In this document: positions 31,103 through 31,903 of the stretch, in pieces
Position numbering within the stretch: the first letter of the stretch is position 1
How the letters are laid out: every line of letters begins with the position of its first letter
From: Notolepis coatsorum
Taxonomy: Eukaryota > Chordata > Actinopteri > Aulopiformes > Paralepididae
Length of the DNA stretch: 64,000 nucleotides
Assembly (NCBI GenBank): GCA_963971535.1
Contig: OZ020599.1
Coordinates: forward strand, 99,625,713-99,689,712
Direction: 5' to 3'
Program-made: the position numbers and the translations under genes
The notes under the pieces: generated by a model
The model's input: the letters and a program-made list of their open reading frames with translations, nothing else
The model's database searches: none
Told to the model about the DNA's origin: nothing

Positions 31103-31118
31103 CCATTTAATACTGATG

Positions 31119-31873
31119 TAGGCCTGTCCCCAACTAAGGATTTGTATAGTCGACTTTTATTGGCCAAAATGTGGCGATAGTCTCGACACATTTTCTGGGA
31201 TGTCGTGTCTGACTATGCCTTGGTGCAGTTCAGCTGACACTGTTGACACGCCCACTACGCGCGCGCACGCACGCACACACACACACACACACACACACAC
31301 ACACACACACACACACACACACACACACACACACACACACACACACACACACACACACACACACACACACACACACACACACACACACACACACACACAC
31401 ACACACACACACACACACACACACATTCTAAATAAAAAGTTCCAAAATAGTTAATTTATCTGACTGCTTGTATTAATTGATAAAAAAAAGTACCCATGTG
31501 CAGTAATATAGTTATATAAAAGAATAATAAAGCAATGTCGATTCTGTTCTTAATTCATTGTTTTTTTTTCTTGCAAAAGAATAAAAAAGAACCGATAAGA
31601 GTATCGATAAAGTACCGAACCGTTAAGCAGTATCGATAAGAGTAGTAGTATCGATAAAATCCTAACGATACCCATCCCTAGTGTCTAGTGTGTTCATTAG
31701 ACGGGTGAAATCCTCTTTCAGAAAGAATGATACAAAAATTTAAATAAAAAAAAATATTATTTTAGTTTTTTATTTATAAAAAATGTTTGCATTCGACTAA
31801 GAGGTTGGCAGTCGACTACGGCTCCTTTCAACGGATTAGTAGACTATTATTGGACTAGTCGGGGTCAGCCCTA
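31119..31873. mobile_element. hAT-type MITE (TAGGSCTGTCC family) next to exon A (755 bp)
   Basis: The ends are TAGGCCTGTCCCCAACTAAG and, reverse-complemented, TAGGGCTGACCCCGACTAGT. An exact 8-bp duplication TACTGATG lies at 31111-31118 and 31874-31881. It contains a (CA)n run at 31262-31424, the partial end of a TAGGGATGGGTATCG-type element near 31590-31680, and GTCTAGTGTGTTCATTAGAC, a piece related to L2 ORF1 that is also found in the copy at 57965. Confidence 0.9.
31262..31424. repeat. (CA)n microsatellite, about 163 bp
   Basis: An uninterrupted CA run lies within the MITE. Readings through it are artefacts. Confidence 0.98.
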
Positions 31874-31903
31874 TACTGATGTGATATTCTTTTTCCTCTT
31901 CAG
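31874..31903 (+). promoter_or_regulatory. Splice acceptor region of grm4 exon A (putative branch site, pyrimidine tract, AG)
   Basis: The 30 bases before exon A consist of the 8-bp target duplication TACTGATG (31874-31881) left by the upstream MITE, then GTGATATTC and a pyrimidine tract TTTTTCCTCTTCAG. CTGAT within the duplication fits the vertebrate branch-point consensus, with the candidate adenosine at 31879, 24 bases before the end of the intron. That it is the branch point is inference. Confidence 0.6.

Follow-up and report, generated by a model that had tools for sequence, protein, structure and literature searches.

At the locus lie a coding exon of a group III metabotropic glutamate receptor gene, hereafter exon A, and a transposable element that ends just upstream of it; both were analysed in a window of 64,000 nucleotides (the whole stretch of DNA considered here) from a genome of 3.42 Gb. 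Matches to PDB sequences indicate that exon A encodes the end of the ligand-binding domain. Taken alone, exon A is closer to mGluR8 (4e-21) than to mGluR4 (2.3e-18), but the next two exons match mGluR4 best (3.3e-177 and 2.1e-42), and the upstream exon, located 14.1 kb before the window, forms with exon A an in-phase junction, NVNFS-G/GT-IAG, that gives the same NVNFSG-IAG sequence as human mGluR4. Because the next two exons and this upstream junction fit mGluR4, the gene is called grm4, and the assignment made in an earlier note on this DNA is upheld. The two exons downstream of exon A are open in frame where searched.

From the exon positions, the intron preceding exon A is calculated to span about 46 kb. 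Since the 137 nt of exon A are not a multiple of 3, skipping of the exon would shift the reading frame. Its donor, GAT/GTACGA (32038-32046), shows several departures from the consensus, and the exon may therefore need a strong acceptor. A tandem array of about 56 copies of a 29-bp unit occupies positions 34111-35738, in the intron that leads from exon A to the seven-transmembrane exon.

Table 1. Features around exon A of grm4, in window coordinates
Feature	Position	Strand	Remarks
MITE2, 5'-truncated, family of about 118 bp, palindromic	31037..31105	.	borders approximate
Host bases TTTAA	31106..31110	+	between MITE2 and the upstream TSD copy
Upstream TSD copy TACTGATG	31111..31118	+	A31116 is 787 nt before the intron end
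hAT-type non-autonomous element, composite	31119..31873	+	TIRs, family copies, TSDs
Other repeat material in place of the hAT family middle	31183..31682	.	(CA)80 at 31266-31425
Downstream TSD copy TACTGATG	31874..31881	+	candidate branch heptamer TACTGAT at 31874-31880, predicted branch A at 31879
Pyrimidine tract and acceptor TATTCTTTTTCCTCTTCAG	31885..31903	+	from the sequence
grm4 exon A	31904..32040	+	137 nt, phase G/GT ... GAT/gt
MITE2 copy	32074..32192	.	about 32 nt after the exon A donor; start approximate

The element next to exon A and its family

Direct sequence comparison shows that the two copies of TACTGATG are identical at 8/8 positions and that both directly abut the inverted ends, TAGGCCTGTCCCCAACTA and TAGGGCTGACCCCGACTA, of a hAT-type element of 755 bp. 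The chance of an 8-bp match at exactly these borders is about 4^-8 = 1.5e-5, and, when both strands of the 64 kb are counted, TACTGATG is found 5 times, including the pair that forms the target-site duplication (TSD). Thirty bases, TACTGATGTGATATTCTTTTTCCTCTTCAG, separate the element from exon A. The earlier note had described an 8-bp TSD flanking an element at 31119-31873, a distance of 30 bp to the exon (31873 against an exon start at 31904), and a CTGAT within the TSD with its adenosine 24 nt before the end of the intron (A31879 against a last intron base at 31903), and each of these descriptions proved accurate.

MITEs of the hAT type make 8-bp duplications, have short TIRs, reach high copy numbers, and lack coding capacity. 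The grm4 element resembles them in all four respects; unlike typical members, this copy has lost the middle of its family and carries other repeat material instead. Its designation as a hAT-type MITE, made earlier for the whole of 31119-31873, is thus supported by the TIRs, the TSD, and the family copies, but applies to only about 255 bp, that is, about 64 bp on the left and 191 bp on the right (about 31119-31182 and 31683-31873), the right part being without about 80 bp of the family. Within the foreign middle, 31430-31682 shows about 91-95% identity to many other places in the genome, and TATCGATA motifs are found in the repeat within 31183-31682.

When the 3' 191 bp of the element were compared with the genome, the best 40 of 1,535 candidates were scored and all matched, the grm4 locus included; in 37 of these 40 the match ended at the last query base. 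The TIR motif TAGGGCTGNCCCCGACTAA has at least 8,821 exact matches in the genome (4,450 forward and 4,371 reverse), and a backwards control gave 0. The grm4 copy is absent from these 8,821 matches, its own TIR being different, and the TIRs that it does carry are common to many genome copies. For the TSDs of sister copies, 31 rows besides the locus were considered, 15 of which were set aside for want of a located 5' end; among the 16 with both ends, the flanks agreed in register at 8/8 positions in 4 copies, at 7/8 in 1, and at 6/8 or fewer in 9, and 2 further copies reached 8/8 after the start had been shifted by eye. Fifteen of the 16 measured 438-557 bp and one 997 bp. In nine aligned copies, the family ends mostly read TAGGGCTGTCCCCGACTAAGG ... 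GGGGTCAGCCCTA, and another family member within the window, at 57965-58496, is flanked by the 8/8 TSD CAATTCAC. The TSD behaviour of the family is hAT-like.

No transposase was recognized by eye among the stop-to-stop frames of at least 90 aa touching 31119-31873, which comprised two (CA)n readings and one frame running from 31731 into exon A. Domains for hAT dimerisation are abundant in the genome (10,698 candidates; the best 150 were scored and all matched), and none of these best 150 was linked to the ends of the grm4 element. When 15 copies were aligned (the grm4 copy itself and others picked as best matches), the ends of the grm4 copy departed from the majority consensus at 20 of 161 positions; because of this divergence, the insertion is probably not recent, although part of the difference may reflect a subfamily.

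A candidate branch site inside the target-site duplication

Over the final 70 nt of the intron, YTNAY is matched only once, by CTGAT, whose A31879 stands at -25 when 31903 is counted as -1. AG dinucleotides occur at -65, -62, -46, and -36 and then only at -1, so that none lies between the predicted branch adenosine and the acceptor. The AGs at -36 and -46 sit inside the end of the MITE. According to the scanning model, the first AG after the branch point is taken as the acceptor, and a branch point inside the MITE would therefore be expected to meet an earlier AG.

In a fixed register, TACTGAT can pair with U2 at 6/6 positions, two of them G-U. Such 6/6 pairing is reached by 89 of the 18,376 A's of the window, a whole heptamer of this kind is contained in 178 window 8-mers (0.28%), and A31879 is the only A from -60 to -11 with at least 4/6 U2 pairs. 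This pairing count was adopted after a duplex energy score had been seen not to discriminate: at -2.1 kcal/mol, A31879 has the lowest duplex energy among the A's listed in the last 60 nt but falls only within the best 19% of 18,375 A's. RNA duplex energy was rejected as a branch-site score, CA repeats before another exon also scoring well.

Human branch points generally lie between -20 and -40 and have the consensus YTNAY, which, in the part of the source drawn on here, is matched by only 35.8% of human adenine branch points (PMC9636908). As many real branch points thus deviate from YTNAY, a non-consensus A such as that at -20 could be used, leaving TACTGAT idle; A31884 (-20, ATGTGAT) at least has the TNA core, and an A in the MITE end is another conceivable choice. 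Scored by register pairing, however, no other site near the acceptor matches as well as TACTGAT, and the MITE A at -37 is itself part of an AG. We regard the use of such another branch point as unlikely, and TACTGAT with A31879 as the best candidate, likely to be the branch site on its sequence.

A comparison was made with the other group III acceptors of the genome, where 8 exon loci including grm4 were found among 12 candidates; this number of loci, along with the earlier note, points to a fish. TACTGAT is present at the grm4 locus only. Five of the 8 acceptors have a YTNAY with its A between -18 and -40, for example AGTTAAC at -23 in the paralog with the closest exon (L046), and 3 of the 8 have none there, so that an acceptor can do without it. 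Over 80 nt each, the acceptor of paralog L049 (G000:C44:37418099) is a (GT)n run ending in TAG and that of paralog L047 (G000:C45:414298) is a CT-rich array; YTNAY is absent between -60 and -13 in both. As substitutes for orthologs, the paralogous acceptors were discarded, being too old to tell the ancestral state.

Folding of the inserted element

An alternative of another kind is that the inverted ends of the MITE pair in the pre-mRNA and loop the insertion out, which would give exon A two usable, identical branch sites. If so, both branch copies and the old TTAAT motif, described below, would come to lie at the foot of the hairpin, close to the acceptor, and the upstream branch copy, 787 nt away in sequence, would be only about 30 nt away in space. 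When 31100-31903 was folded alone, the outer 17 nt comprised 14 that paired with the opposite end at 0.94-1.00 and 3 with values of 0.00-0.01; the upstream branch A was free (0.90) and A31879 was mostly paired (unpaired 0.09). With more flank included, pairing of the MITE ends dropped to about 0.24 and 0.33, and A31879 was mostly free (0.80 and 0.76). The minimum free energy of the MITE fold has a z of -2.41, with 1 of 20 shuffles folding as well. Judged from these models, looping out with two active branch sites would be highly improbable.

The empty site and the neighbouring MITE2 copies

Joining of the flanks with a single TSD copy rebuilds the empty site as TTTAATACTGATGTGATATTC. In this reconstruction, the host bases TTTAA and the T that follows them yield a second YTNAY, TTAAT, whose adenosine (A31110) stood at -31 before the insertion, and AGs are found at -40 and -45. 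The MITE moved TTAAT away, and the stronger TACTGAT site was kept. A search of the genome itself for an empty allele found none: the exon with its flanks matches 3 places, and the full 201 bp are present only at the locus.

These changes could mean that the insertion weakened exon A, with the loss of TTAAT at -31 and the gain of AGs at -36 and -46 leading to partial skipping and lower output. The rebuilt site has two YTNAY motifs against one now, and it also had its own AGs at -40 and -45; moreover, in the sections of a human and mouse survey used here, transposable elements near exons are underrepresented and disease-causing insertions show the opposite trend (PMC3088655). Yet the site that remains is the stronger one, the pyrimidine tract is uninterrupted, the element does not appear recent (20/161 sites off the consensus of its ends), and the MITE allele is the only one in the assembly. 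Such a weakening is, in our judgment, rather improbable.

The truncated MITE2 on the left ends about 5 bp upstream of the TSD, with the TTTAA host bases in between. Of this copy, 31037-31098 was matched, 61 nt being 89% identical to 32134-32194, and its 3' border was placed near 31105 by visual inspection of 12 aligned sequences; for the family, a first look at the genome gave 2,630 candidates, of which the best 40 were scored. Exon A thus occupies a non-repeat island, in which its 137 nt are bordered by about 35 nt on the acceptor side, as rebuilt, and about 32 nt on the donor side. The earlier note had attached significance to the displacement of everything further upstream by 755 bp, a point that we consider trivial in an intron of about 46 kb that already has the end of another MITE about 5 bp before the TSD.

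About 50 nt of the left MITE2 (31054-31103) are 80% complementary to the right copy (32075-32125), and the introns flanking exon A could therefore pair around the exon. On the basis of this complementarity, circular RNA formation or skipping through MITE2 pairing across exon A is possible.

Does the duplication explain why the insertion was tolerated?

On the downstream side of an insertion made with an 8-bp staggered cut, nothing changes from the first base of the target onward. At grm4, this base is also the first of TACTGAT, and an insertion any nearer to the exon would therefore no longer spare the whole heptamer. By hand count, 8-bp targets starting from -60 to -8 offer 53 placements, 31 of which spare the heptamer, the tract, and the AG, and in 2 of these 31 the whole heptamer is inside the TSD.

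The proposal had been that the acceptor is intact because the TSD copied the motif. What holds is that both flanks carry the motif and the acceptor is whole; the explanation of tolerance by the TSD applies only at the boundary position, because any insertion 5' of the motif spares both motif and tract. The overlap of TSD and branch site may accordingly be a coincidence, the insertion having been tolerated since it lies upstream of the acceptor module in a 46-kb intron filled with repeats, and the outcome would be the same for any insertion with its target start at -30 or further upstream. If selection is left aside and the genome is assumed to have 200,000-300,000 acceptors, the 8,821 exact family ends should yield 1.0-1.6 insertions whose TSD encloses a whole heptamer (0.5-3.5 with the other copy numbers that were entered) and 16-24 that fall in any of the 31 placements between -60 and -30. 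The MITE2 end about 5 bp before the TSD points the same way. At this exact place, however, the branch site would have been displaced had the element entered at the target's 3' edge and made no duplication, and for this reason the TSD does keep the branch site here. We give coincidence a somewhat better than even chance; it is compatible with the explanation that we favour, from which it differs in emphasis.

In that favoured explanation, insertion of a hAT-type MITE would have begun with an ordinary 8-bp staggered cut that happened to start on the first base of the branch heptamer TACTGAT. Gap repair would have copied the 8 bp, so that the downstream side would retain the ancestral module of branch heptamer, pyrimidine tract, and CAG. 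Exon A would then be spliced as before, with U2 pairing with the downstream copy and A31879 attacking, and the upstream TSD copy would be an inert by-product. We propose that the insertion persisted because it took the 3'-most position that spares the module whole. Taken together, the TSD edge at TACTGAT, the retained acceptor module, and unchanged splicing make up an account that we consider fairly probable, in which we infer the use of the branch site, the neutrality of the insertion, and the order of events.

Discussion

Transposable elements are underrepresented near exons in human and mouse, and for all DNA elements taken together this zone extends over 50 bp in human and 100 bp in mouse; in the sections of the survey drawn on here, the three retrotransposon classes examined are less frequent near acceptors than near donors, and the core acceptor signals are given as 20-50 bp (PMC3088655). 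As far as those sections describe them, these zones concern the situation found at grm4, where an intronic element lies very close to an acceptor. Unlike the survey, the grm4 MITE is a single, non-mammalian case inside such a zone, with a TSD that overlaps a predicted branch site.

Duplication of a splicing signal by a transposon is already known from the canine merle SINE in PMEL, where, in the part of the report considered, a 15-bp TSD contains the original acceptor and splicing is altered (PMC7349775). Both cases involve a mobile element at an intron-exon boundary and a TSD holding a splicing signal. In merle, as described there, a SINE sits at the acceptor, and the branch site and the original acceptor have been set apart; at grm4, in contrast, a DNA element sits immediately 5' of the branch motif and the module is whole. 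By this analogy, and within the portion of the merle report used, the grm4 MITE looks like a benign counterpart of the merle SINE.

The MIR/AluSp exon of BLOC1S2 shares with grm4 the presence of transposable element sequence and predicted branch points near an acceptor, and of nested elements (PMC6822395, in the part relied on here). In BLOC1S2, the elements create a new exon and supply its branch sites, according to the same part of the source, whereas the grm4 exon is ancient and its branch motif is host sequence. In the open-access literature searched, no report was found of a DNA transposon with a branch site in its TSD.

The grm4 MITE is an ordinary insertion that stops just short of damage, and it leaves views of splicing and transposition unchanged. 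It offers a clean, testable example of how near to an exon an insertion may be tolerated, the limit possibly being set where the branch site starts. In a repeat-rich genome of 3.4 Gb with thousands of MITE copies, natural insertions could serve to map branch sites and tolerance by the comparison of carriers and non-carriers of such insertions.
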